Shown in pieces: positions 1,888-56,445 of a DNA stretch of 64,000 bases. The notes beneath the pieces are model-generated. The model did no database searches and was not told the origin of the DNA. It was given only the letters and a program-made list of their open reading frames with translations. Position numbers and translations under genes: made by a program. The stretch is from Bartonella senegalensis OS02 (GTDB lineage: Bacteria > Pseudomonadota > Alphaproteobacteria > Rhizobiales > Rhizobiaceae). The stretch covers positions 270,514 to 334,513 of the forward strand of contig NZ_HE997540.1 of NCBI RefSeq assembly GCF_000312545.1, written 5' to 3'. Position 1 is the first letter of the stretch. Every line of letters begins with the position of its first letter.

Positions 1888-3810
1888 TCATACTCGAACT
1901 TTCTGCACTGTCCGAATCTTACGTCCTAGAGCAGAAAAAACCGTATTAACAATACCAACAGCATCCAGTCCTATACGCGAAAGAACTTTCTCTGGTGAAC
2001 CATGGTTCAAATATTCATCAGGAAATTTTAACGTGCGAACTTTTAAACCCTGTTCTAAAAGCCCTTCTTGCGCCAAAAATTGCAATAAGTGCGCTCCAAA
2101 CCCGCCTATTGCGCCTTCTTCAATGGTTACTAACACTTCATGCTCACATGCTAAACGACGCATCAAATCTTTATCTAAAGGCTTCGCAAACCGCGCATCT
2201 GCAACTGTCGTAGATAATCCTTCCGCATTCAACCTATTAGCTGCCACCAACACTTCCGACATCCGCGTTCCAAAACAAACCAAAGCTATCCTGCTTCCCT
2301 CACGTAAAACACGTCCTTTACCAATCTCTAATAACTCACCGCGCTGCGGTAAATCCATGCCAATCCCTTCACCACGTGGATAACGAAAAGAAATTGGCCC
2401 CTGATCATATGCTGCAGCGGTACGCACCATATGCATCAGTTCCACTTCATCAGAAGGCGCCATGACAACAAATTCAGGAAGAGTCGTCAAAAAAACAATA
2501 TCAAAACTGCCAGCATGCGTCGCGCCATCTGCGCCTACAAAACCTGCTCGATCAATCGCAAAACGCACAGGTAATTTTTGAATCGATACATCGTGGATAA
2601 TCTGGTCATAAGCGCGCTGTAAAAAAGTAGAATAAATCGCAACAAAAGGTTTGTATCCTTCACAGGCCATACCAGCAGCAAAAGTGACTGCATGCTGCTC
2701 CGCGATACCAACATCAAACATTCTTGTAGGAAATCTTTCAGCGAAAGAATCAAGACCTGTTCCAGTGGGCATTGCCGCTGTTATAGCAACAATCTTATCA
2801 TCATGACTTGCCTCTTCGCTTAAAGCTTTAGAAAATACTTTCGTATAGGGAAGAACATTGCTTGATGCTTTAACTTGTTCACCTGTTATAATATCAAAAC
2901 GATTAACACCATGATATTTATCCAATGACGCTTCCGCAGGTGCGTATCCCTTGCCCTTATGCGTAACAACATGTATTAAAACAGGACCGGTAGGATATTC
3001 ACAAACATTCTTTAAAACAGGTAACAAATGCTTGAAATTATGACCATCTATTGGTCCAACATAGTAAAAGCCAAGCTCTTCAAATAACGTTCCTCCAACC
3101 AAAAGTCCACGTGCAAATTCCTCTGAACGGCGTGCTTTATCTAAAAAGAATTTTGGTAATTTTTCGCCTATTGTCTTTACTCGTTCACGCAAACTACGGT
3201 AAGCGGGACGAGAAACCAATCGTGCAAGATGAGCACTCATTGCACCTGTTGGTGGTGCAATGGACATATCATTATCATTAAGGACAACAATCAAGCGTGC
3301 ATCCAAAGCACCAGCGTTATTCATCGCTTCATAAGCCATGCCAGCAGACATAGCACCATCACCAATCACTGCAACAATGTTGCGTTTCGTTTCTGCTTTT
3401 AAAGCACTTGCTACCGCCATACCAAGACCAGCTGAAATAGAAGTCGAAGAATGCCCCGCACCAAAGGGATCATACACACTTTCTGAACGTTTTGTAAAAC
3501 CTGACAATCCCCCCTCTTGACGCAATGTACGAATTCTAGCTCTACGTCCCGTTAAAATTTTATGCGGATAAGCTTGATGACCAACATCCCAGATAATCCT
3601 ATCCTCAGGTGTATTAAAAACATAATGCAAGGCAATAGTAAGCTCAACAACACCCAGTCCCGCACCAAGATGACCACCTGTTACGGAAACCGCATCAATT
3701 GTTTCTGCACGCAACTCATCAGCTAACCGCACCAAATCAGATTCAGGCAATGCCCGCAAATCTTGTGGTACACGAACACGATCAAGCAATGGCGTTAATG
3801 TTCGAGACAA
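1888..3810 (-). CDS. dxs: 1-deoxy-D-xylulose-5-phosphate synthase
   Basis: This thiamine-diphosphate enzyme condenses pyruvate with glyceraldehyde 3-phosphate, the first step of the non-mevalonate isoprenoid pathway; it also feeds thiamine and pyridoxal synthesis. At 640 residues it has the usual length. The cofactor motif [16 protein letters not shown] lies at residues 150-165, with [15 protein letters not shown] near 75-89. The transketolase-type pyrimidine domain carries [17 protein letters not shown], and the ligand motif SFRYPRGEG follows. It lies downstream of xseB with a 190-base gap and is tightly followed by tlyA. The same pathway is represented in this window by ispE. Confidence 0.97.
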
Positions 3811-4002
3811 AAAAAACTCCCTAAATATTATCTTATCAAGAAAACGAAATAAGAAACTGTCTTCTTCACTTTTTGGTTTACAGTGTATGCATTTCTATCG
3901 GAATATTTTATCTCTGTGGAATTCTCTACAAATTTTCTTGATAAAAAAACCGATAAAAGGTGCTCCCTATAAAATTACAACCAATATTCCAAATATTTAG
4001 CA

Positions 4003-4260
4003 TTATTCAGAATCAAGTAGTTCTACACCTTGTGGAGAACCTTCTTCTGAAAGTTGAATTCTTTCAACTTTAGCTTCTGCAGCTTTCAAAAGTTTCTCGC
4101 AATGTTTTTTAAGAGCTTCACCACGCTCATAAATATCTATTGATTGTTCTAAAGGTACATCCCCACGTTCCAAATTCTCAACAATCACTTCAAGCTGCTT
4201 TAGCGCTTGCTCAAAACTCAATGTCGTAACATCATCCGCCTTTTGTATCTCTTGTTTCAT
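4003..4260 (-). CDS. xseB: exodeoxyribonuclease VII small subunit
   Basis: An 85-residue acidic helical protein containing the XseB signature: [33 protein letters not shown], given here by its key stretches FEQALKQLE and [11 protein letters not shown]. It partners the large subunit XseA, which is not in this window, to degrade single-stranded DNA. An open frame extends upstream to 4302, but I prefer the ATG at 4260: GAGG sits five bases before it and the extra residues would overlap ribBA. It follows ribBA by seven bases, so the two are probably cotranscribed. Confidence 0.9.
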
Positions 4261-4267
4261 GCGATCC

Positions 4268-5374
4268 TCACAAGATATCTGTTCTGGAGATACGAATTCC
4301 AAAACCCTCTAAACCTACATAATGACGCTCTTTAGAAGCGTAAAGAATAACAGAACTAATCCCTAAATGTTTTAAGATTTGTGATCCTAAACCAATTTGA
4401 CGCCATTCTTCTTCGCGTTCAATCGCTTGCGCATGGTTTTCTAAACCCTTCATTGCCAGTATCTGACTGCTAACAGCTGATTGTACACCAACAGATCCTT
4501 CACGCAAATAAACAAACACACCACGTTTTTCTTTTTCCATCATCCGCTGCGTAATCTCTAAAATATCTGAAGTTTGACCAAAAACATCATTCATAATATT
4601 TTCACGATGCAAACGCACAGGAATATCCTCACCATCACGGATATCACCAAAAATGATTGCAACATGTTGAACAGCCTCCCAAGGAAGTTGATAACTTTGA
4701 ACAACAGCTGGTCCTACTGATGTTTCAATATGCATCTCTCCAACATGCTGGATCAACATTTCCTTACGTTGGCGATAAGCAATCAGATCTGCAACTGTTA
4801 TGATATGCAATTGCTTCTCTTGTGCAAATCTTGTAACTTCCTCTCCATGTTTCACGCTGCCATCATCATTAACCAATTCACCAATAACGCCAACCGGTGG
4901 TAAACCAGCCAATCTGCATAAATCAACAGCTGCCTCTGTATGACCGGAACGCATGAGAACTCCCCCTTCATGCGCAATCAGAGGAAAGATATGTCCTGGA
5001 CGGACGAAATCGCTTGCACCAGCATTTGAATTAGCAAGATTACGCACCGCTAATGCACGATCGTGTGCTGAAATCCCTGTCGTTGTTCCATGTTTAAAAT
5101 CAACAGTCACAGTAAATTGGGTACGATGCGCTGAATTATTCTCTAACACCATAGGAGTAAGATTAAACCGTTGCGCTTCTTCTTTTGGCATCGGAGCACA
5201 AACAATACCGGTTGTATGGCGAATGATAAATGCCATCTTTTCTTCTGTGCAATGCACAGCAGCAACAGTCAAATCACCTTCGTTTTCACGGTCATCATCA
5301 TCTGTAACCACCACAATTTCACCGCGTTCAAAAGCGCGAAGTGCAGCAACAATTTTTTTTTGATCATATGTCAT
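4268..5374 (-). CDS. ribB: 3,4-dihydroxy-2-butanone 4-phosphate synthase with degenerate GTP cyclohydrolase II domain
   Basis: A 368-residue two-domain protein of riboflavin synthesis. Residues 1-205 form an intact RibB domain that makes dihydroxybutanone phosphate from ribulose 5-phosphate: [10 protein letters not shown] at 25-34, SAHDRA at 102-107, and [11 protein letters not shown] near 142-152. Residues about 208-368 resemble GTP cyclohydrolase II, but the zinc motif is lost. Where active enzymes read DVFGS-x-RCDC, this one reads NDVFGQTSD at 262-270 with no cysteines. The second domain is therefore probably inactive, as reported for many alphaproteobacterial RibBA-like proteins. It lies three bases after aroC. 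Confidence 0.92.
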
Positions 5375-9334: not shown

Positions 9335-9424
9335 TCCTTCAAGCTTTTAAAAATAAACCCTTTGTTTTTCTTATAAAGAAACAAGTTTGTACCATTATTA
9401 GCCAGCTCAAAATGCTGCACCATC

Positions 9425-9600
9425 CCTTACTACTTGAAACGGTTCATTGAAAGCATTTTTATTCCTTTCTTAATCGTTTTTTATCCACATGCTCATCCTA
9501 TTTGTGACATAAGTGATTTTCATTGATTCAACGTAAATTTGAAATGAGAGAGTCGTACGATATTAAGTTCTCTCATTCACGTTGCGAAATGATAAATTAT
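9425..9600 (-). repeat. Dispersed leader repeat, copy A (solo)
   Basis: This segment resembles the upstream regions of two decayed P4-type integrases in this window (31704-31885 and 56241-56445) and a fourth copy at 32295-32430. Shared blocks, read on the minus strand, include a CTCTCATTTCA-like segment, TGAATCAA with a following AAA, a TGTCACAA-like stretch, TGTGGGTAAAA and TTAAGAAAG. This copy contains a clean inverted repeat, AATGAGAG at 9543-9550 and CTCTCATT at 9570-9577, separated by 19 bases. No integrase body is recognisable next to it; pdxH ends 90 bases away. The similarity is by eye; identity was not computed. Confidence 0.6.
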
Positions 9601-10046
9601 CATTATTAATTAATATATTATCTAATTAAACGACTTATTTGCAAAAATATTAGAGTGAAATGTTGCTTTCAATTTAAATCAGAGAAATACATCCTTTAGG
9701 CAAAACTTATGTGAGAATAATCTTTTGCCAATTGTACAGCTTGAAGAGAGGTTACAACTATAAAGCTTATCCAAGTAAATGCTTTAGTTCAGCAAAACCA
9801 GATAAGGTAATTAGAAATAATCTGATTTAATTAAGAACATAGAGTTGTTAATTGCAACATCCTATCTCAAGCCTGTTTTAAACTTTTTTCTACAAATTGC
9901 GAAAATGTAACAAGATACTAATTTTACATGGAAAAGAATTTAAAGACTGAAATAAAAAATTTTAAAATCAAGAACAACACCCTTAGCTCTTCATTCCCTT
10001 CCTTTTCAGCATTAAAGAATATATGGATTTTATTCTCTTTTTCTGT
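9601..10046. other. AT-rich gap between pdxH and ubiA, no gene seen
   Basis: Both flanking genes end here, so this is a convergent spacer. I see no open frame with a ribosome-binding site, no tRNA-like fold and no recognisable protein remnant beyond the leader repeat just before it. Confidence 0.5.
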
Positions 10047-13713: not shown

Positions 13714-15123
13714 CTATAATATTTTTCCAGGGTTCATAATTCCTAAAGGATCAAGAGTTTTCTTAATCTTCTGCATAATATCTAATGCAACAGGTGATTT
13801 GAAAGTGCGAAGCTCCTCGCGCTTAAGCTGACCAATTCCATGCTCTGCAGAAAATGTGCCCTGATAGTGCATCACTAGACCATGAATGCGGTGATTCATT
13901 TGTGACCATAATTGCAAAAATGCTATAGTATCGGCTCCAACGGGCTGTGTAACATTATAATGCAGATTTCCATCACCCATGTGACCAAAACAAACCACCC
14001 GAGCACCTGGAGCAATCTCTTCAACAATAAGAGCCGCCTCAGCAATAAAATCAGGAATGGAAGCAAGAGGCACAGCAATGTCGTGCTTAATAGATCCTCC
14101 CGCTAATTTTTGTGCATATGATATACTTTCACGCAATTGCCAAAAAAAATCTTGTTGCTTTAATGATTGGGCAATAATTGCATCTTCTATTACAGTATCT
14201 TTTAAAGACTGCTCTAAAATGGTTCTTAACACCGACAGCGCCTCATTATCACCCTGTAATGATGAAACATTAAGTAATACATACCACTCATGCTCATGTT
14301 CAAAAAGATGCTTCTCGCACATCTTATACTCTAAAGCCATTTGCAAACTCAGTTTGCCCATAAGCTCAAAACCAGTTAACATCTCCCCCCCAAAGCATTG
14401 CGCAAGAGATAAAAACTCAAGAGCTTTAACTGGACTGTGTAAGCCGACAAAAGCAACAGCTTTTCCTTTGACCTTTGGAAAAAGCTTTAAAACGGCTGCT
14501 GTTATAACGCCTAACGTACCTTCCGCACCAATGAAAAGATTTTTCAAATCATAACCGCTATTGTCTTTCTTTACAAAACGCAAATCATCTAAAATACCGC
14601 CATCAGGTAAAACGACTTCTAAACCAAGACAAAGCTCACGCATATTGCCATAAGCTAAAACAGCTGTCCCTCCAGCATTAGAGGAAAGATTTCCCCCTAT
14701 CTGGCATGAACCTTCTGAAGCCAAAGAAAGAGGGAAAAAACGCCCCGATTCATCTACTTTTTTCTGTAAAGTCTGTAAAATGACACCAGCCTCCACCACA
14801 GCAAAATTACCCTCAAGATTTATACATCTAATCTTGTTTAATCGTTCCATGGATAAAAGAACGCTGCACCCATTTTCATCTGGCTGTTGACCACCGACAA
14901 GACCTGTATTGCCACCCTGTGGTACAATTGGTGTACGTGTTTGACTAGCCAATTGCATAATTGATGAGACTTCCACTGTGGAAGATGGACGTAAAAGCAA
15001 TGGTGTTTTTCCATGAAAAAGTCCACGCTCTTCACGCAAATAGGGTGCAATAAGAGCCTGATCTGTTATCGCGTGTGCAGCACCAACAATTTTTCTAAAT
15101 CTTTCAATTAAATCCTGCTCCAT
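13714..15123 (-). CDS. FAD-linked 2-hydroxyacid dehydrogenase (GlcD/D2HGDH-like)
   Basis: A 469-residue flavoprotein with an N-terminal FAD-binding type 4 domain (PIVPQGGNTGLVGGQQP near residues 65-81, EGSCQIGGNLSSNAGGTAVLAYGNMRE near 137-163, FIGAEGTLGVITAAVLKLFP near 198-217) and a C-terminal FAD-oxidase domain (CFGHMGDGNLHYNV, FSAEHGIGQLKREEL, MNPGKIL). Such enzymes oxidise D-2-hydroxyglutarate, D-lactate or glycolate and pass electrons to the respiratory chain or an electron-transfer flavoprotein. The substrate cannot be settled from sequence. It lies two bases after the Sua5 gene in a probable rnhB-sua5-dehydrogenase transcript. Confidence 0.85.
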   Translation of the reverse strand: MEQDLIERFRKIVGAAHAITDQALIAPYLREERGLFHGKTPLLLRPSSTVEVSSIMQLASQTRTPIVPQGGNTGLVGGQQPDENGCSVLLSMERLNKIRCINLEGNFAVVEAGVILQTLQKKVDESGRFFPLSLASEGSCQIGGNLSSNAGGTAVLAYGNMRELCLGLEVVLPDGGILDDLRFVKKDNSGYDLKNLFIGAEGTLGVITAAVLKLFPKVKGKAVAFVGLHSPVKALEFLSLAQCFGGEMLTGFELMGKLSLQMALEYKMCEKHLFEHEHEWYVLLNVSSLQGDNEALSVLRTILEQSLKDTVIEDAIIAQSLKQQDFFWQLRESISYAQKLAGGSIKHDIAVPLASIPDFIAEAALIVEEIAPGARVVCFGHMGDGNLHYNVTQPVGADTIAFLQLWSQMNHRIHGLVMHYQGTFSAEHGIGQLKREELRTFKSPVALDIMQKIKKTLDPLGIMNPGKIL

Positions 15124-15125
15124 TT

Positions 15126-16088
15126 TTATTTCCCCTTTGGAGCCGCTGCACGTATGAGACGATCATTAATAGCCTCACCCAATCCGTAAGACGGAATAGG
15201 TTCTACCGCAATAGATCTTACTTTAAGTGAATCTAATTGTCTCATATATCGAAACAAATGAGAAGCTGCCTCTTCCAACCATCCGCTTTCACTAAGATTT
15301 AAAACAGAAACGGCATTTTCAACCCCCATAATGCGTTTTCGACCAAATGCTAAAAGTGCTTCTCCATGTTCTACCTTGTGAACATTCAAACGAACCACAG
15401 CATTGGGCGCATAATGCGATTTTAACATACCTGGTGCCTCAATCGCAGCACATTGATCTATCCTTTTCAATGATTTTCCAGCAACTTCTTCAATTTCTTC
15501 AGCAGCAATCCCTCCAGGACGCAAAAGATAAATATTTTCATTACAAACCTTAATAATCGTTGATTCAAGCCCTATTTTAGAAAATCCTCCGTCAAGTATC
15601 AAAGGAACAGATTCTCCTAAGGATGCCAAAACAGCTTCAGCTGAAGTCGGACTAAGGAATCCTGATCGATTTGCACTAGGAGCAGCGAGAGGTCGACCAA
15701 AACGTTGTACAACTTCTGCAAAACAGCTATCTGGAAAACGAACAGCCAATGTATTGAGACCAGAAGTGGTTAAAGGATGGATATTATGCCGTGCCTTTAA
15801 AGGGAGAACGAATGTCAAAGGACCTGGCCAAAATACTTCCATTAAGCGACGTGAAAGAAAATCAATTTCAACATAGTGTTCCGCCATGAAAATACTGCTT
15901 ACATGAGCAATAAGAGGGTTAAATTTCGGACGCTTCTTGGTAAAAAAAATAGAAGCGATAGTTTTCCCATTAGTTGCATCACCAGCCAATCCGTAGACAG
16001 TTTCTGTCGGGAGTGCTACTAATCTCCCCTGTTCAAGCAGCGCAACTGCTTCTTTTATCGAAGCATCATTGAGAGGTAGAATCGTCAT
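15126..16088 (-). CDS. threonylcarbamoyl-AMP synthase, Sua5 type
   Basis: A 320-residue enzyme that makes threonylcarbamoyl-AMP from threonine, bicarbonate and ATP for t6A37 in tRNAs. The YrdC domain (about 1-200) shows [18 protein letters not shown] near residues 17-34, [16 protein letters not shown] near 48-63, and [17 protein letters not shown]-terminal Sua5 domain (from about 215) with SHYAPNA is present, so this is the long Sua5 form and not the short TsaC form. The start codon overlaps the rnhB stop in an ATGA arrangement, indicating coupling. Confidence 0.92.
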
Positions 16089-16756
16089 GATATATTCTCT
16101 CTGTCGCGATTCTTAAGCGGTGCAAAACTATAACGATGTAATCCCACAACCGGTCCATATTTTTCAAGAGCGGTACGATGTGCGAGCGTTGCATAACCTA
16201 CATGCTTTTCTAAACCATAACCTTTATAAACCTGCCCTGCGCATTCCATCATCTGATCACGCGTTACCTTGGCAATAATGGACGCTGCCGCAATTGAGAC
16301 CGAACGCTGATCGCCTTTAATCAAAGCAGTTGCTGGACATGGTAGCTGAAAGGGAATATCGCGTCCATCAACCAGCGCATAGTGGGCTGGAACGGCTAAT
16401 CCTCTAATACAGCGACGCATTGCTTCTAAGGTTGCTTTTCTAATATCAGATTGATCAATCGTACGGGCGCAAAGACTGGCTATTGAAACTGCTAAGGCAC
16501 TTTGTAAAATTTTATGATAAAGCTCATCACGCCGCTGGGCAGAAAGTTTTTTCGAATCATTCAATCCATCTGGAATACGCTCTTTATCCAAAATAACTGC
16601 TGCTGTTACCACAGGTCCAGCCAGAGGTCCACGTCCAACTTCATCAACACCCGCTATATACAAGAAACCCTGTTTCTGCAAATTCAATTCACACGAAAAA
16701 TTTGGTTTAAACGGCAAATTTAATATATGCGGTAAATTATCGATATTTTGAAACAT
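16085..16756 (-). CDS. rnhB: ribonuclease HII
   Basis: This enzyme cleaves the RNA strand of RNA-DNA hybrids and removes single ribonucleotides from DNA. It has the RNase HII signature [16 protein letters not shown] at residues 35-50, with catalytic D38 and E39, then [19 protein letters not shown] and [15 protein letters not shown] further on. It is 223 residues long with a somewhat long N terminus of about 30 residues before the core. It heads a tightly packed minus-strand group with the Sua5 and FAD dehydrogenase genes. Confidence 0.95.
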
Positions 16757-17324
16757 GAAGTTATTTTTGCACCGCTATACGTTTTCCGCAAGTCCTGCAG
16801 AAGAAATAGCCCATAGAGTAAATCATTCTGCCTTCTCCACAAACAACAAAAAAACTTCATATATGAAATGTCTTATCAATATTTTCAATTTCTTTAAATA
16901 TACCCCACAGCATCTTACATGCTACCGTATGAATTTGAAAAATATATACTCGGATAAAATGACACATCTGTGATAATACAATATTATCGCCTTTAAGCAA
17001 TTTTTAAAGTTCTGTGATTACTTGCTAAACCAGAGGATAATTCAATATCGACTGGGAATCCTGTAAAAGAAGAAGCTTTTATCTAATCACAAGGTAATAG
17101 ATTGAGAGTTTTCTGATTTATTGATGTGAAATTGCCATGCCCAATTCACATCCTCTTCATCTTGTCAAAGGAATCAAACAGCCATAGCAAAAATTTGCGT
17201 ATTTGATTGAGCAACGCATTAGAAATATGGATAAATCCATAGAACGTAAAAGTTTTTTGACAACTAAAAAATAGGCTTGCCGAATTTACACTGTATCATA
17301 CCTCTTAAACCAAGGTAAATTTAT
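16757..17324. other. AT-rich gap upstream of rnhB, no intact gene
   Basis: No supported frame. The part nearest rnhB should carry its promoter. An inverted repeat of nine bases, GTATCATAC at 17293-17301 and GTATGATAC at 17351-17359, straddles the start of the integrase relic. I cannot say whether it is functional. Confidence 0.4.
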
Positions 17325-18130
17325 TGAAGGGTCGTATGGATTGTAAAGGAGTATGATACCATTGGCAGAACCTTGCTAAAAGTCATAAAAAGACAGAGAG
17401 AATTCATTTTGATGAAATTTTTCAATACCGTAGAAAAATTCTATACCAAGCAATCAAAAAACGCATATCATAGCCGATGTTGAACAACGCAAAAAATACC
17501 ATCAACTGCTCAAAATTTTCTGAAAATATTCAAAGATCTTTTTAAGTGGGCAATTGAATAAAAATAATCTAGCTTTAGCGAATAAAAGCCCCCTCTCCCC
17601 AAAAGAGTGATTTGCTATTTGGACAAAAGAAGATGTTAAGAACATAGTTTCATAAATGGCATGATAGCTGTGAACACCTCTTGATTGATATTCTTTTTTA
17701 CATGAGTTTACGTTGTGGAGATGCTGTTCGTATTGGTTGAAAAAATGGCAAAGATAATATTTCTCTTAAGACAGAGAAAAAAATTCTAAACAGATTATTT
17801 TACGTCCAATTTTGTCTGAACTAGTGGAAAGCCTGTAAGTTGGTTCCATCCGTGATGAAAAATTCCTTTTTGGTGAAAAAGGTAAGAAACTAGCTAAAGA
17901 AAGCTTCAGGACTTTAGTTTAAAAGCATGCAACCAAGCAGGTATCAAAAATCACCAATCGTAAAAAAATGAGCAGCGATACGCATAGCAAACTTATATGC
18001 AACGCTATCACAACTGAAAGCACTTTTGAGATTGAGAGAGGCTATTCTAACATCTCCTTCATATTTATACACAAAGCACAGATCGTAAAAAAAACTTGCT
18101 CTTTAATTGAGCAAAAAACCCTCCAAAAGT
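17325..18130 (+). pseudogene. decayed tyrosine recombinase (phage integrase)
   Basis: When the reading frame is followed across shifts and stops, this reads as a phage-type integrase nearly end to end. Recognisable pieces in order are EGSYG, ILYQAIKKTHIIADVEQRK, IFKDLFKWAIE (the core-binding domain), FAIWTKEDVKNIVS, LRCGDAVRIG (box I), ISLKTEK, ILSELVESL, RDEKFLFGEKGKKLAKESF, and a box II-like ATLSQLKALL. At least several frameshifts and in-frame stops interrupt it, and the HxxR motif is destroyed. It is therefore inactive. It marks a former prophage or genomic island; no neighbouring phage gene or tRNA is left. Confidence 0.85.
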
Positions 18131-18305
18131 TAGAAATAAAGATAAAAAAATGAATAGAATCAATATTCTTCTTGCAACTGCTATAACCTATTGATTGTAT
18201 CGCTCTCTATTCTCTCGCTAGGATCATAACACCATTGCTTTTTACAAATCGTGATGTTCTCCATTACCTTATCTTTACTTTTAAATCTTAGCTTAACATC
18301 AAAAA

Positions 18306-19223
18306 CTAGGGTTTTGCTAAAGTTACAATAGGTCTAACAAACCAATCTGGATACATCGCTTTGATAAAAAGAGCAGCCTGTTGCGCTGTTTGCTTATCTT
18401 TAAAAATACCAAAACAAGTTGCGCCAGTCCCAGACATGCGAGAAAAAAGAGCTCCACTCTCATCTAATGCCCATAAAACTTCAGATAGTCGCGGTGCAAT
18501 TTTTAAAGCAGGAACAAAAAGATCGTTACGTGTTTCCCGTAAGGCTTCAACCAATGAATCAACAGTCTTGAGAGCTGCCAAATCAATTTTTAAGGGGGGA
18601 TGATCATGCTTCTCCAAAGCCTTAAAAACAGCTTGCGTCGCAATCTGTTGACCATGATTAACTAAAACCATTGCAACAGAACACGCCTCTTTTAGCCGTG
18701 TTATATCTTGCCCAATTTCTTTAACAAAAAGTGGCTGCTGATATTCCAATGCAAAAAGACACATCGGAACATCAGCACCAAGCACTAAGCTCATTTGCGC
18801 TAATTCTTCACAAGAGCAACCAAGAGCCCATCGCTGACGCAACAGACTTAAAACACCAGCCGCATTGCCCGAACCGCCACCAATCCCTGAAGCAACCGGC
18901 AGTAATTTAATAAGTCGAAAAAAAGCGGGTTGAGCACATTCAGGAAAGGTGTTACACATAAAATTATGCGCACGAACAACCAAATTCTCTGCATTAGAAA
19001 CAAGTCCATCTGCAAATGGACCTGTCAAAACAAAGCGATTACTCTCAAAAGGGGTATAGCTTAAACAATCACCACTGAGACTAAAATAAACCAAACTTTC
19101 TATTAAATGATAGCCATCAGGCCGTTGCCCTACAACATGCAAAGCTAAGTTCAATTTAATAGGGGTAAATACATAAGAAAACCCTTGGAATAAAGCCTGT
19201 CCATCTCTTATATCATTTGACAT
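18306..19223 (-). CDS. ispE: 4-diphosphocytidyl-2-C-methyl-D-erythritol kinase
   Basis: A GHMP kinase of the non-mevalonate isoprenoid pathway, 305 residues. The N-terminal [24 protein letters not shown] and the glycine-rich ATP site [17 protein letters not shown] are diagnostic, as is [12 protein letters not shown] near the C terminus. The ATP loop has GN where most homologues have AD (GGGSADAAA); the fold should tolerate this. The start overlaps the end of a small membrane-protein gene by 11 bases. Together with dxs, it shows that this organism uses the DXP route. Confidence 0.95.
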
Positions 19224-19416
19224 AATATTGATCAGTGCGGGGATCTTTTACCAGTGTTCCCCTTATGTCAACTTGTGATTTAAACTGTGCACGGTAAACG
19301 TGACACCATACCCTTTGTAATCTTTTCCTTAACACACAATAAGTATAAAGAGCTATAATACAAACCAAACTTACTGCTATCATTCGTATCATTTTAAATC
19401 TCTTCTTTTCTAACAA
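19213..19416 (-). CDS. small single-pass membrane protein, unknown function
   Basis: A 67-residue frame with one hydrophobic segment (about residues 10-26, [20 protein letters not shown]) followed by a basic stretch and the tail [15 protein letters not shown]. The DPxTxxY tail recalls short conserved segments in other small proteins, which favours a real gene. An internal ATG at 19392 (MIRMIAV) may be the true start. It overlaps ispE by 11 bases and follows the S49 peptidase gene by about 80 bases. No function can be assigned. Confidence 0.55.
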
Positions 19417-19471
19417 GTGTTTTCAGGCAAAATCATCAACCAAACTTAACCAATATGAAATCACTCCTCAT

Positions 19472-19508
19472 CATTATAAGCTATAATGCTTCATTATAAA
19501 CCATAATG
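19472..19508. repeat. two tandem AT-rich palindromes at the end of the S49 peptidase gene
   Basis: CATTATA-AGC-TATAATG (19472-19488) is a perfect seven-base inverted repeat. It is followed by CATTAT-AAACC-ATAATG (19492-19508), a six-base inverted repeat. The two start 20 bases apart. The second covers the stop codon of the peptidase gene. They could form a terminator or be a binding site; the sequence alone does not decide. Confidence 0.4.
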
Positions 19509-20345
19509 TTGCCAAAGTGCTCGCTCTTGCGCTACCGTCACCGCACTATCAATTGCTGTATGGACCGCATAAGCTGTAACTCCTGCAGGAGCTTTAGGTC
19601 CAAAAAGACTTTTTGGAGGCGTAATTAATCGCAGTTTTGCATCATCCCCAAACCGCTCCTTAATAACAGAGCGCACATCATTCAATCCATCAATAAGGCC
19701 GAGCTCAACCCCTTTCTTTCCGCTCCAAAACATTCCTGTAAAAATATTTGGATCATTAGATAACTTCTCTGCACGCCGCTCTTTCACCAAATCAATAAAA
19801 GTTTGGTGTACTTCGAGTTGCAGAGATTTCAAATGGTCAATATCCGCCTTTTTCTCCGGCTGAAATGGATCCAATGTAACCTTATTTTTTCCTGCTGTAT
19901 AGACACGACGCTCGACTCCTATTTTCTTCAAAAGCTCAGGAAAACCAAAAGAAGTTGTAACAACACCAATGGAGCCAACAATCGAAGAAGGATCAGCAAA
20001 AATTTCATCTCCAGCACAAGCAATCATATAGCCACCCGATGCTGCTATATCTTCAATAAAGATAAGAACCTGTTTCTTCTTTTCCTCTGCCAAATCACGA
20101 ATACGTTTGAAGATCAAACGTGATTGCACAGGGGAACCACCAGGAGAATTGATAATAAGTGCAACAGCTGGTGCTTTTTTGTAAGCAAAAGCCTTGTCCA
20201 AAAGATTTGCACACCTCCCTAATGAAAGGCTCCGCGTTATCGATGAATTTGAATCAATAATCGCACCATGAAGACGTACCACAGGAATTTCAGTTTTACT
20301 GGAACAAAAACGATGTGGAATACAATTTTTGATAAACTTAACCAA
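19494..20345 (-). CDS. S49-family signal peptide peptidase (SppA/SohB-like)
   Basis: A 283-residue serine peptidase. The core reads INSPGGSPVQSRLIFKRI near residues 66-82, then EDIAASGGYMIACAGDEIFA with the nucleophile serine at 103, SIVGSIGVV, and the general-base lysine region TAGKNKV near 150-156. It is the short single-domain form. There is no clear N-terminal membrane helix; the start MVKFIKNCIP is only weakly hydrophobic. Members of this family degrade cleaved signal peptides and some membrane proteins. The gene is followed by the small membrane-protein gene and ispE in the same orientation. Confidence 0.85.
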   Translation of the reverse strand: MVKFIKNCIPHRFCSSKTEIPVVRLHGAIIDSNSSITRSLSLGRCANLLDKAFAYKKAPAVALIINSPGGSPVQSRLIFKRIRDLAEEKKKQVLIFIEDIAASGGYMIACAGDEIFADPSSIVGSIGVVTTSFGFPELLKKIGVERRVYTAGKNKVTLDPFQPEKKADIDHLKSLQLEVHQTFIDLVKERRAEKLSNDPNIFTGMFWSGKKGVELGLIDGLNDVRSVIKERFGDDAKLRLITPPKSLFGPKAPAGVTAYAVHTAIDSAVTVAQERALWQHYGL

Positions 20346-31239: not shown

Positions 31240-31703
31240 AATACCCTATTGCATTACCTTGAAACAAAACCATAAATGCCTTCATATTCGTTTGGGTAAT
31301 TTCTGAAACAGGTATAAAGCTTAACTCGGGAAACATATGAAGTTTTAGAAGTGTAAACCAGTTCCCATCTGTATCATCTCCTTTGAATTCAGCTTTACGA
31401 CTTTCAAAAGCACTTAAGAAAAATATCTTTTAAATCATGCAGATTACGCACTGCCTCACGCTTTTGTCTCTCACGTTTTTTAAACAGGGTCACGCCCCTC
31501 ATGTAAAAGCGAATTCTATTGGGCTTCCAATTCACGCGCTTTTTTAAAAAACATTTCTCAATACTCGCAAGCCCATTTCGCAACGCCACCCGTAAATGGT
31601 ATAATGATAAAGCCATTGTGCACCAACCTCTTTACGCCTATGAAGAAGCAAGCTGACACCATCATTCTCTTTACCCCCCTAATTTTGCAACATCCCTTTG
31701 CAT
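31240..31703 (-). pseudogene. truncated, frameshifted P4-type integrase (copy B)
   Basis: Read on the minus strand from an ATG at 31703 and across frameshifts, this encodes the N-terminal half of a P4-family (DUF4102 arm-domain) integrase. Pieces in order are MQRDVAKLGG, KENDGVSLLLHRRKE, GAQWLYHYTIYGWRCEMGL, KKARELEAQ, LLHEGRDPV, KREAVRNLHD, ESRKAEFKGDDTDGNWFTLL and PVSEITQTNMK. Stops and shifts separate several of them. The catalytic half is absent; sequence after about 31240 is unrelated. A paralogue with the same 5' leader lies at 55213-56240. Confidence 0.82.
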
Positions 31704-31885
31704 TGAAATAGTCTATAAGAAGTATTTTTACTCTTTGTCTTTAACAGTTTTTTCCACACGCCCCCCCCTTAACAACACACAAGGAAATAGTTTTGTTTGA
31801 TTCAATATAAACACGTTTAGAATGACAGAATCTTAAGACCTTCAGGACTCTCATGCAACATGGAAAAATAATAAATTATATTTAT
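31704..31885 (-). repeat. dispersed leader repeat, copy B (upstream of integrase relic)
   Basis: The region directly upstream of the integrase relic resembles the same position upstream of the 55-kb relic and the solo copies at 9425-9600 and 32295-32430. Shared blocks on the minus strand are CATGAGAGTCCTGAA (identical or nearly so in the 55-kb copy), TTGAATCAA, and GTGTGGAAAAAA near the integrase start. It contains a run of eight cytosines on the plus strand at about 31751-31758. Confidence 0.6.
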
Positions 31886-32294
31886 AAATCAACTCATTGT
31901 ACAAAATATAGAAACACAGTGAGAAAATATTTTGCAAGATAAATCCGTTATTTTAGGTTTCATTCATAAATAAAACGCATCCCTCTTTCAATGCGGAAAA
32001 TACCTATAGATCTTCCCTTTCATACAGAATATGCACAAAGGGTTGTTAAACAGGATTTTAAACTACTTTGTGCAACTGCAGTCAAATTTGGCGCTTCTCT
32101 TCCTACCACTTGAATATTGATAACTTCTGAAAACGTTTTTATTTGCATAAATCACTGCAAACAATGGCATTTTTGCTCACCAATAATCTCTATCATCTAT
32201 AAAATAGAATGATAAAGATGCTGCAAAACACTTTGCACAATTTAGCATCATAATGCTATTCTTTCGTCTCCAATCTTGCATCTGCTCCTGCATT
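31886..32294. other. gap between two leader repeats, no gene seen
   Basis: AT-rich sequence between copies B and C. I find no open frame with a ribosome-binding site and no clear integrase residue matches, although an integrase relic could have decayed beyond recognition here. Confidence 0.35.
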
Positions 32295-32430
32295 TAGAAG
32301 ATTGTGTTCTTTCTTAAACGATTTTTACCCACAGGTTGATCTTTTCTCTACTGTGTAAGTCAATCATTTTTCTCATTTTGATAAAGGGAATTGAAATGAG
32401 AGAATATTATCCTTCTGGATTTTTTTATTT
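32295..32430 (-). repeat. dispersed leader repeat, copy C (solo)
   Basis: Same family as copies at 9425, 31704 and 56241. Recognisable blocks read on the minus strand are TTCTCTCATTTCAATT, ATTGACTTACACA-like spacing, CCTGTGGGTAAAAATCG and TTTAAGAAAGAA. It contains only one arm of the inverted repeat seen intact in copy A. It lies in the same orientation as copy B, about 500 bases away, between der and the F0 operon. Confidence 0.5.
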
Positions 32431-32624
32431 AATAAAAGTAGAGACATCAATTATTTTTATAAATCAATTTATTATAAGGTAATTTTTATTGAAAAGAAAA
32501 TTATTGTTTATTTTGTTGATCAATTGATTTTTGATATCAAAAGTCAATAATCCATGAAAAAGCTTCTTTTAAAAAACTTGTTTCTCAATACAAATTTTAT
32601 AAACTTTAAGAAAAGAGAGAGCAA

Positions 32625-47402: not shown

Positions 47403-49487
47403 TGTATATGCCCACTATTGTTATGCGTGATATTTGAAAATGAAATATAAAGCTTACAAGGCATTTACAAAATCATTATTTTTTTTAATTTATAGGTTAG
47501 AAGAGAAATTTTTATCTACTAAAAATTCTTTAAGGAAGATAAAAAATCAATTGAAATTATTCCCCTGTTATTCATAAAATTTTCGAACAGCATCAAATAT
47601 AAAAACTATCCCTTAGATTCCGATATGAAAAAACAGCTTCATTATGCCTTATCCGTATGCATAATGTTATTATTCTTTCTTGATCTGTAAAGCAACAAAA
47701 TCTTTATTAATGATACATAAACTGCAGGACAATTGCAGAACGTCTGTTTCCGAATACAATAGCAAATCATCTTACCAATTTTATTATCGATATTTTGTGA
47801 GGGTCTTTATCACACCCTCTTTTAAAATATGCATCACTCTTATTGTTAAGAGCTTTTACACATCCTTTTCCATCTCTCAGCGTAATTCTCTTTTTTATAA
47901 AATATTCCTTCTAAACAATAAGAATATAAACGCGAAGATTTTTGAATCTATCACATCATGTTTAGAAAAATACGATATGTTTTATACGCCTCATTAATAT
48001 AATTTTGCACAAATTATCATCAAATAAAGACAATACATACCCTTTAACCGATGTAAAAAAATGAATCATTCATCACGGTAACGATTTTATGGAAAATTTA
48101 CCTCCTTATTCAAACGATAGCTAAGTTTCCTGATGCCGTATAACTTGATCTTCTGTATTGATCTTATTTGGATATAATCAGATAAATACTCCCAATCGGT
48201 ACAATAAATTTTACCAGACATACTTCAATAAAAACTAGGAGGATTTAGAGTACCGTGAACAAATGAAAATAGCGAAAGAATATATTTCAGGAGGCACATA
48301 AAACCTGTTATATTTACAGAATATGATAACGGGCAATTTCGGCAATATTGAACAGAGTTACAAATTAATCCTTACAAATTGGATATTTCAAAATATTACC
48401 ATATAATGCTTATTTTTGTGAACCCTTTACCGCTTTATGGCAAAGCGATAAAGAAAAATTAAGGCTGTTATCTTATAACTTCAAAACGAAATTTAAGACT
48501 TTTCCAAGCGAATACAATCAAATACAATGCTGATTGTAATAATTTAGAAAGAATTTTCTTTCTAGAAAAATGTCCTATAAATTTTCATGATCCAATGTTT
48601 GAGTAGGCAAAAAAGTTTTTACCTTCTCCAACTGATATGAGCTAATGAGAACAGATTATGCATCCAGAGAAAATGATAACGTGTAATTCTATAATTTTTA
48701 AAAAATATAACTATTTTTTACATTCTTACTATACAATTATATCATAAAAAAGAAGTGATAAGTCACCACTAAGATCGATAAAATCGCCAGTAAGATATTG
48801 TTATTTTAAAAGAGAAAAATAATGCACTCTCTGTCTTGAATTCACAACAAACTTTTTTGCTGCTTATCAGAACAAAAAATTAGCTCCTGTTCTGTGTTCC
48901 TATTTCAAGTAACAAAACGTTTTACATTTATAATAGATATTAACATGTCTTGATACAAAAAAGAAACAATTATAGGATAGACTATAGATAATGAGGAATA
49001 AAATAAGCGTTTACATTGAAAGCATATTAAAAAACACTTTTTAGAACAATGTATCAATTTATAAAGCTAATTTATTGTTTTTTCACTTTAATGAAAAGCT
49101 TTAATGCAACTATGTCTCCTCATTTGAAACCTGTCTTAGAATAAATTAAAAAAAATCTTTTTCTAGCTAAACCAAAAGGGGAATTGGTCTGTGAATAAAA
49201 AACTTAAGAAAGGGCTAAATACGCCTTTTCTTATTAAGAGTTTGAATGCAAAAATAGAGACAGCTTATGATTAAGAAAATATCATGATTGTGCTGATCTG
49301 TTGCTTGCATAAATAAAAAAGATAACAGTGCCTAATAAATTTTATGTTGTACACTTCATGGACAAGCACCAGAAAGTGGAATAAAGAAAAAGGTGAGAGA
49401 TCTCTCTTAAAGAAAGTCTGCGAATGAACTGCAACAATGGTATGTACTTCTTCCCAAAATATACAGGGATTTTTCTTGCTTTAAAAT
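47403..49487. other. 2.1-kb gap without an intact gene
   Basis: The longest gene-free stretch in the window. The 105-codon frame at 47680-47997 has no good ribosome-binding site and a random composition. Around 48255-48480 there is a stretch that reads like protein across frame changes (EYREQMKIAKEYISGGT, KPVIFTEYDNGQFRQY, INPYKLDISKYYH and RLLSYNFKTKFKTFPSEYN); see the separate entry. No tRNA, integrase or repeat match is recognised elsewhere. Confidence 0.45.
48250..48490 (+). pseudogene. possible decayed coding fragment, unidentified
   Basis: Successive frames give protein-like text broken by stops and shifts: EYREQMKIAKEYISGGT, then KPVIFTEYDNGQFRQY, then INPYKLDISKYYH, then RLLSYNFKTKFKTFPSEYN. 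The residue mix is less random than in the surrounding sequence. AGGAGG is present upstream at about 48238. I recognise no family. It may be a relic of a lost gene or chance. Confidence 0.3.
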
Positions 49488-55212: not shown

Positions 55213-56240
55213 GGATTTTATAGACTAAAGCAGTCTTTGTTCTCTCATAAGAGGCATCTGTTGTTTTGGCTAACCAATCACGTAAACCAGAGAAAAAACC
55301 ATCAAGGCATGTGTCAAGTCAAATTTTTTCATTTATTATAACAGGCAATTTGCAAGGGATACGATAGAAAAAGAAAAGGTACAATCACTTTTGAAGAGAC
55401 AACGGACTTATTTAATCACTTTCAGTGTTTCTGATGAGAAAGGGAACATGAAACTCTTTTTTTAGTATTATATTTTCCTTTCATATTCTCAACAGATCCA
55501 TATATTGCCGTCAATCAGATCTTTGTGGAGATAAATATAACGTTCGTAAAGATAAGAAAATGTAACACCATATGTGTTTATAGTCGTTGTTTTGCAAAAT
55601 ATTTTATAAAAAATCTGGAATATCTCTCCGATCTATGAGGAGTTTTATGATATTGTTTACCTAATAAAGCCTTTGCTTTTTCTGTCACTTGTCAATCAAC
55701 ATCTAATCCTAGCGTAACAGCATATTCGAGACAAAGATTAGGACGATTTAGCACTTTATAAGTTTTTCCTTCTTTTGTATGCAAATAGGCGCAAGAGTGT
55801 TGCATATCTCTATTTGTGTAATTTTAAAAATGGGTATACAGCCTCATTTATGGAAAATGGAAAGTTGTAAAGATGAAAGCCAATTCCCATCTTTACCATT
55901 ATCTTTTAGTTCAGCTTTACGGCTTTCAAAAGTATCCAGAGCAATTTTTTTTAATAATAGAGATTGTACATTGCTTCACGTTTTTGTTTCTCTCGTTCTT
56001 TAATGGTATTACGCTCTTCACGTAAAACAGAACGCCATCGTGTTGCCAATTCACGTGCTTTTTTTAAGAGAAATCTCTCAGCGTATAAAAGTCCATTTCA
56101 CAGCGCTGCCCGTAAAGGGTATAAAGATAAATCCATTGAGCACCCCCATCTTTACGCTTGTGAAGGAGCAAGCCGACACTCTCATTCTCTTTGCTTCTCC
56201 TCACATGTTGATGCAATCCTTGGCACTTGAGAGGATTCAT
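55213..56240 (-). pseudogene. full-length decayed P4-type integrase (copy D)
   Basis: On the minus strand, from an ATG at 56240, this reads as a P4-family integrase across stops and shifts. The N-terminal arm domain gives VGLLLHKRKDGGAQWIYLYTLYGQRCEMDF, ARELATRWRSVLREERNTIKEREKQKREAMYN (by pieces ARELATRWRSVLREE and KEREKQKREAMYNL), and ESRKAELKDNGKDGNWLSSL. The middle gives QIEICNTLAPI and then MFPFSSETLKVIK. The C terminus gives SGLRDWLAKTTDASYERTK, the HGFRSxLRDW region. It spans the entire gap after folD. It is inactive and is a paralogue of copy B. Confidence 0.85.
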
Positions 56241-56445
56241 AAAAGCTATTTCTATCTCTTTCTTAATTAGTTTTACCCACGCGCCAGCCCCACTTGTGAC
56301 ATATAAGCAAATGATTTTGATTGCTTCACTCTAAAAGGATTTGCGGTGAGAAAATTACACTATTCAGGACTCTCATTCACCATGTAAAAAGATAAATTAT
56401 CCTTATAGATCAATGTTATAATATTTGTTACGCATGTGCACTTTA
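56241..56445 (-). repeat. dispersed leader repeat, copy D
   Basis: Upstream region of the integrase relic, shared with 31704-31885 and with solo copies at 9425-9600 and 32295-32430. On the minus strand it contains GAATGAGAGTCCTGAATAG, a TTCTCACC half-arm, ATATGTCACAAGTG and GCGTGGGTAAAACTAATTAAG. It begins about 20 bases after the edd stop codon. Confidence 0.6.

Follow-up and report, generated by a model that had tools for sequence, protein, structure and literature searches.

In the window, by which we mean the whole 64-kb stretch of Bartonella senegalensis OS02 DNA that was analysed, five copies of a leader repeat of about 180 nt are present, each running into what is left of an integrase gene (int). 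The features are as follows.

9454–9620, minus strand: leader copy A, left end of a truncated element (profile E 2.9e-28)
~9370–9622, minus strand: full footprint of copy A, including ~30 integrase codons (family-model positions 12–277 = 9622–9370)
9543–9577: inverted repeat in copy A, AATGAGAG (9543–9550), 19 nt, CTCTCATT (9570–9577)
31724–31898, minus strand: leader copy B (profile E 1.5e-26), in a 614-bp insert absent from genome G064
31287–31723, minus strand: 5' integrase remnant of copy B, about residues 1–147 with several stops (to family-model position 627)
32302–32474, minus strand: leader copy C (profile E 3.7e-15), common to G064
32266–32301, minus strand: integrase piece of copy C, ~15 codons
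49048–49221, plus strand: leader copy D (profile E 6.6e-16), matching place occupied in G064, G013 and G024
49222–49434, plus strand: 5' integrase remnant of copy D (to family-model position 392)
56248–56419, minus strand: leader copy E (profile E 9.7e-37, a member of the training set)
55244–56247, minus strand: decayed integrase of copy E (to family-model position 1225)

Four of these segments had been described in the initial annotation as resembling one another, and the resemblance is real, the leader profile matching all four and the BLAST and profile E values lying far beyond chance. By BLAST inside the window, 9425–9600 aligned with 56225–56400 (69% identity, E 4e-13) and 31704–31885 with 56239–56406 (69%, E 6e-11), the 56-kb copy being ~69% identical over ~170 nt to both the 9.5-kb and the 31.7-kb copy; 31704–31885 also matched 9517–9606 (71%, E 5e-6), and 32295–32430 gave just a 33-nt match (82%, E 5e-4). 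The profile, which uses sequence only, was built from 34 copies (25 from the same genome and nine from relatives) that match by construction, with the 56-kb copy as the single window member of the training set. It recovered the three other listed copies (E 2.9e-28, 1.5e-26 and 3.7e-15) and a fifth one missing from the initial annotation (49048–49221, plus strand, E 6.6e-16), the next-best match in the window standing at E 0.014. The common minus-strand sense attributed to the repeat holds for the four listed copies and fails for the fifth. Decayed integrase genes do lie behind two of the four, as had been claimed: tblastn aligned residues 12–150 behind the 31.7-kb copy (49% identity, six stops) and residues 16–279 and 83–355 behind the 56.2-kb copy (11 and 13 stops), while no more than ~30 codons remain at the 9.5- and 32.3-kb copies.

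In 39 copies aligned in the direction of int, the repeat sets in abruptly at yAAnnnATTGATTTATAA and extends over ~180 nt up to AAGAAAGGAGTAAAAATG, where the ribosome-binding site and the beginning of the integrase lie. Each leader has the same sharp outer edge, ..ATTGATTTATAA. The eight-base inverted repeat with a 19-nt loop noted at the 9.5-kb copy was confirmed in the sequence and is part of a family-wide 11-pair arrangement, TTGAATGAGAG / CTCTCATTTCAA, which is Watson-Crick in 290 of 374 cells over 34 copies; its arms are candidate binding sites for the integrase arm domain or for an AlpA-like regulator. Open copies of the integrase have 388–393 aa, and the integrase of locus L038 exceeds the Pfam cut-offs for PF13356 (Arm-DNA-bind_3), PF22022 (Phage_int_M) and PF00589 (Phage_integrase), corresponding to the arm-binding, the central and the catalytic domain. 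When named genome contigs were scanned for the integrase, 222 stretches were confirmed and 80 loci kept, all of them from Bartonella; these favour full-length copies because they were picked by their integrase. The leader stands directly before int in 75 of the 80. The integrase and the DNA behind it are common to the named loci, and DNA farther upstream is mostly found in few or no others.

The copies in the window differ in the relatives with which they share their sites. Copy A is also present in the sister genome G064 (L198/L259), its site being empty in G067; among 29 other loci fetched, one (that of G064) has the leader in the same place, 25 have no leader and three have one elsewhere or in the other orientation. 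The exact place of copy B, a 614-bp insert, is without insert in G064, and copy E, an insert of ~1.19 kb, is absent from G064, L244 and L247. For the gene at copy E, which matches in 46 other genomes, 29 other loci were fetched: 27 are without a leader, L255 carries a leader in the identical place, and in L256 a leader lies close by in the opposite orientation. Copy C is common to G064, and copy D to G064, G013 and G024. Given this differing site sharing, the copies are separate insertions of different ages. A comparison of occupied with empty sites gave nine candidate insertions, of which four that were nested or poorly aligned (L068, L143, L170 and L220) were left out. At five insertions with an empty site, host DNA is flush on both sides: copy A as in G064 (266 bp), copy B (614 bp), copy E (1186 bp), L256 in G055 (627 bp) and L217 in G023 (454 bp, the weakest alignment of the five). 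The right end of the element is absent from all five window copies. Beside copy D, ~1.2 kb of the window (47810–49048) is missing from the sister genome G064.

The outcome that the initial annotation named as a refutation, no more copies in the genome, did not occur. In this genome (2,002,317 bases in 41 contigs), one leader copy used as a BLAST query gave 41 matches, and the profile gave at least 114 at E ≤ 0.05 and at least 108 at E ≤ 1e-5, counted among the best 150 of 1514 candidates. One interrupted leader is counted twice among the 108, once for each half, which leaves at least ~107 copies. By profile at 1e-5 the family is present in 39 of 61 Bartonella genomes and gave no match in the remaining 22; 19 of the 39 have at least 44 matches each, per-genome counts being lower bounds. 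With one copy as BLAST query, a match was found in 12 of 24 relatives from the same genus and in none of 16 genomes of other genera. Similar integrases do occur outside the genus, the nearest in the collections searched being from Sinorhizobium meliloti CP090106 (63% over 98% of the protein), followed by Tritonibacter (59%) and Sulfitobacter phages (43%), yet the leader had no BLAST match in those 16 genomes. The leader is not described in the titles and abstract openings of the open-licence papers found on Bartonella islands, repeats, satellites or integrases, which is weak evidence of absence.

Most copies are visibly decayed. In the surroundings examined for 112 of the 114 matches in the genome, some with flanks partly N, 47 leaders have no collinear integrase protein match and a single integrase is intact, preceded by the interrupted leader. 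Against G064, the leaders of copies A, C and D are 81, 80 and 79% identical, and the DNA beside A is 66% (119 nt of integrase piece and spacer) and 79% identical, and that beside C 79 and 86% (the latter the 36-nt integrase piece); for the remnant of the D integrase the figure is 78%, and for one other spacer 74%. The leader and remnant of D are 67 and 69% identical to G013, and 68 and 69% to G024. Orthologous leaders thus decay about as fast as neighbouring DNA, and selection is not indicated; by sequence comparison, the leader identities fit neutral decay. The suggestion that the repeat is selected finds no support here (79–81% for leaders against 66–86% for neighbouring DNA and 74% for the other spacer in the sister genome), and the alternative that it is still moving suits the family's full-length elements but not the copies in the window, every one of which is broken.

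Both ends could be located in four full elements of 13.3, 15.7, 15.9 and 37.8 kb, in which the leader is the left end and which sit at different sites between direct repeats of 8–13 bp. Three are from Bartonella sp. B1099 and were delimited against the empty site: L172 (15.73 kb, direct repeat ATAATTCCAAC), L184 (13.28 kb, TACATTGA) and L118 (15.94 kb, TTCCGGGGTCTGG). The fourth is the window genome's own element, which runs from C1:583856 to ~C1:621699 (37.8 kb, a length taken from contig coordinates) and split an older leader, leaving its positions 2–53 on the left and 39–179 on the right, with CTTGAATGACAGA on both sides. Family elements have the order leader, integrase, small AlpA-like protein, Toprim primase, DUF3987 protein and cargo. 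In L164 of B. florencae, the genes behind int encode a 66-aa protein without a Pfam match (PHROG excisionase/regulator, E 5e-6), then a Toprim primase and a DUF3987 protein in two pieces. The large proteins of L172, L184 and L118, judged by eye from open reading frames, resemble those of L164, and the integrase and some replication genes of L184 appear broken. The L164 island also carries a 1655-aa type ISP restriction-modification protein (14578–19545), and similar proteins were seen by eye in L172, L184 and L118, which near the right end, at ~11–14 kb from the left end, also carry one to three genes for proteins of 200–390 aa with many short HVYGNA-like repeats.

Because the leader is the left end of an element lying between direct repeats, it is probably an attachment-side and promoter region rather than a free-standing repeat. 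The earlier proposal of an integrase promoter, attachment or arm-site region thus stands as to place, the leader appearing as a left terminus that runs into the ribosome-binding site and ATG of the integrase. The repeat is very probably the left terminus of a family of integrating islands of Bartonella, most copies being old remnants from which the rest has been cut away. Going inward from the host DNA, one would meet the element edge (..ATTGATTTATAA), a control region of ~180 nt with the inverted repeat, a Shine-Dalgarno sequence and the integrase ATG. Such islands have inserted many times in Bartonella chromosomes with the leader leftmost; some event after or during insertion would then strip away all that lies between a position within int and the right border, leaving a left-end scar to decay neutrally.

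Comparison with described systems places the family among the P4-type tyrosine-integrase integrative elements. As in other P4-integrase islands, a protein with Arm-DNA-bind_3 and Phage_integrase domains lies at the left end with a small AlpA-like gene behind it, and direct repeats flank the whole, and the Bartonella family appears to work like those islands. It differs from them in lacking a tRNA gene in the 64-kb window and in having three different cores in three elements, none of the cores read by eye being a tRNA end, and also in the roughly one hundred left-end scars of one Bartonella genome; insertion into a tRNA gene is no required feature, and membership holds. The integrase, AlpA-like regulator, primase and helicase-like module recall the P4-like phage satellites (PMC8628076), a likeness of gene order that does not by itself class the Bartonella elements among those satellites; of the full elements, the gene scan covered L164. 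Closer to home, B. grahamii has repeated integrase-flanked islands, the fha-repeats, with seven copies of 10–28 kb according to passages of PMC2697382. Going by that description, these may well be members of the family, although the same passages mention neither a leader repeat nor scars.

How the right part is lost can be approached from the ends of the remnants. In the window's genome, left ends were found by BLAST at 41 places and right ends at four, a ratio resting on queries of unequal length (231 bp and 600 bp). Integrase pieces without a collinear leader are few (C4:35118, C1:701491 and C1:1025189). The integrase is truncated from the right, and the ends of 102 copies spread widely, but 21 of them lie at model positions 260–281, a stretch of 22 nt corresponding to integrase codons ~25–32; none of 5000 smoothed resamples was as clustered (for the 95 ends under position 1000). 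In other genomes, nine of 46 truncated copies end in the same stretch (p 0.035). Two further integrase-like stretches of this genome, C2:265528–266382 and C6:16559–17404, are 49 and 54% identical to the family's integrase; they sit within long open frames of ~867 and 812 aa and have no leader match.

For the removal event we tentatively favour a recombination in which the integrase joins the right border to weak sites within its own coding sequence; such a collapse is unproven, its two direct tests being negative. Direct repeats around 93 truncated copies were, as a set, not significant (140 of 2000 permutations as good). The likeness of cut sites to host targets, as good in 29 of 3000 cases for the 79 younger copies and in 76 of 3000 for all 137, was dropped because shifted controls, at 23 and 80 of 3000, were no less alike. 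One copy, C1:857776–857949, has TGCTTCTTCATAC on the left and TGCTCCTTCATAC on the right, a suggestive single case. An apparent collapse in place at L149/L163, with a full copy and a stub at one site, was rejected, L163 proving to hold two truncated copies head to head (~3480–4716), one of which runs into the other. Rather doubtful is a stronger form, in which the recombinase time after time fuses the right border to favoured positions within int, chiefly at codons ~25–32; this would delete the cargo and the catalytic domain and leave a fixed left-end scar.

Ordinary deletion is a less probable source of the loss than integrase recombination, and equally so the broader idea that random deletions in a shrinking genome pared the inserted islands with no special reaction. 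The many lengths and stops of the integrase remnants, the neutral decay of the leaders and the negative direct-repeat and target-likeness tests are what such paring would give; it accounts poorly for the excess of left over right ends (41 against 4 with the 231- and 600-bp BLAST queries), for the 22-nt cluster of 21 among 102 cuts, unequalled in 5000 resamples, and for the flush right host border at the five compared insertions. Insertion of already shortened molecules, helped in trans, is a somewhat weaker candidate still. Two further observations tell against the favoured account. Among truncated copies that share DNA behind the cut, 45 of 53 pairs lie at unrelated left flanks, and not every cut copy therefore adjoins plain host DNA. 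The other is the pair L034:998–1704 and L275:8446–9154, at two sites of one genome, which have in common a truncated integrase as well as the ~1.5 kb that follows it and are nearly identical from the integrase ATG on, with clearly different leaders; this looks like exchange between repeats.

That pair could also be claimed for a MITE-like, non-autonomous unit, consisting of the leader and a 5' piece of int and moved by the integrase of full elements, as could the ~107 copies and the flush insertions of 266, 454, 614 and 627 bp. We regard such a unit as unlikely. The left end of the copies is fixed while their right ends vary, and truncation classes do not cluster: on the leader tree, the 21 copies of the commonest class require 17 changes, the nearest neighbour falls within the class for seven of 21 against 4.5 expected (a weak signal from 180 nt), and mean identity within the class equals what random sets give, 222 of 500 being as high. 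Among 819 close pairs, defined by leaders at least 88% alike at unrelated sites, nine are doubly truncated and none of the nine shares its end, and of the 13 truncated copies that have a close partner, seven are nearest to a full-length or nearly full-length copy, with an integrase extending past position 1200. The leaders of L034 and L275, moreover, differ despite near-identity from the ATG on. The earlier idea of a small mobile unit that outlived its genes is not supported, with L034/L275 as the exception.

That the leaders are a conserved regulatory RNA, like the Brt family of B. henselae, is highly improbable. As described in the parts of PMC5387305 drawn on here, Brt RNAs are a genus-limited intergenic family of ~200 nt (194–203 nt reported) with variable copy number, in all of which they resemble the leaders. 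They precede helix-turn-helix genes and fold strongly, whereas the gene behind a leader, where one is left, is the integrase, and five leaders folded no better than shuffles (z -1.25 to 0.85), with minimum free energies of -22.6 to -30.7 kcal/mol against -56 to -85 reported for Brt. RNAalifold on 34 leaders gave -1.3 kcal/mol, five pairs and no consensus fold; there was no Rfam match at the gathering score, and neutral decay again argues against such an RNA. Set beside that description, the leaders are not the Brt family.

For the annotation of Bartonella islands, the leader family supplies exact borders. It also carries a warning that a conserved-looking intergenic repeat may be neither an RNA nor a selected element. 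The scars, roughly one hundred per genome, amount to a datable record of island insertion in a genus of mammal-associated bacteria, and if the element does curtail itself, those of a single genome would record its past insertions. Should the integrase indeed make the recurrent internal cut, the family would offer a testable route by which integrative elements destroy themselves.
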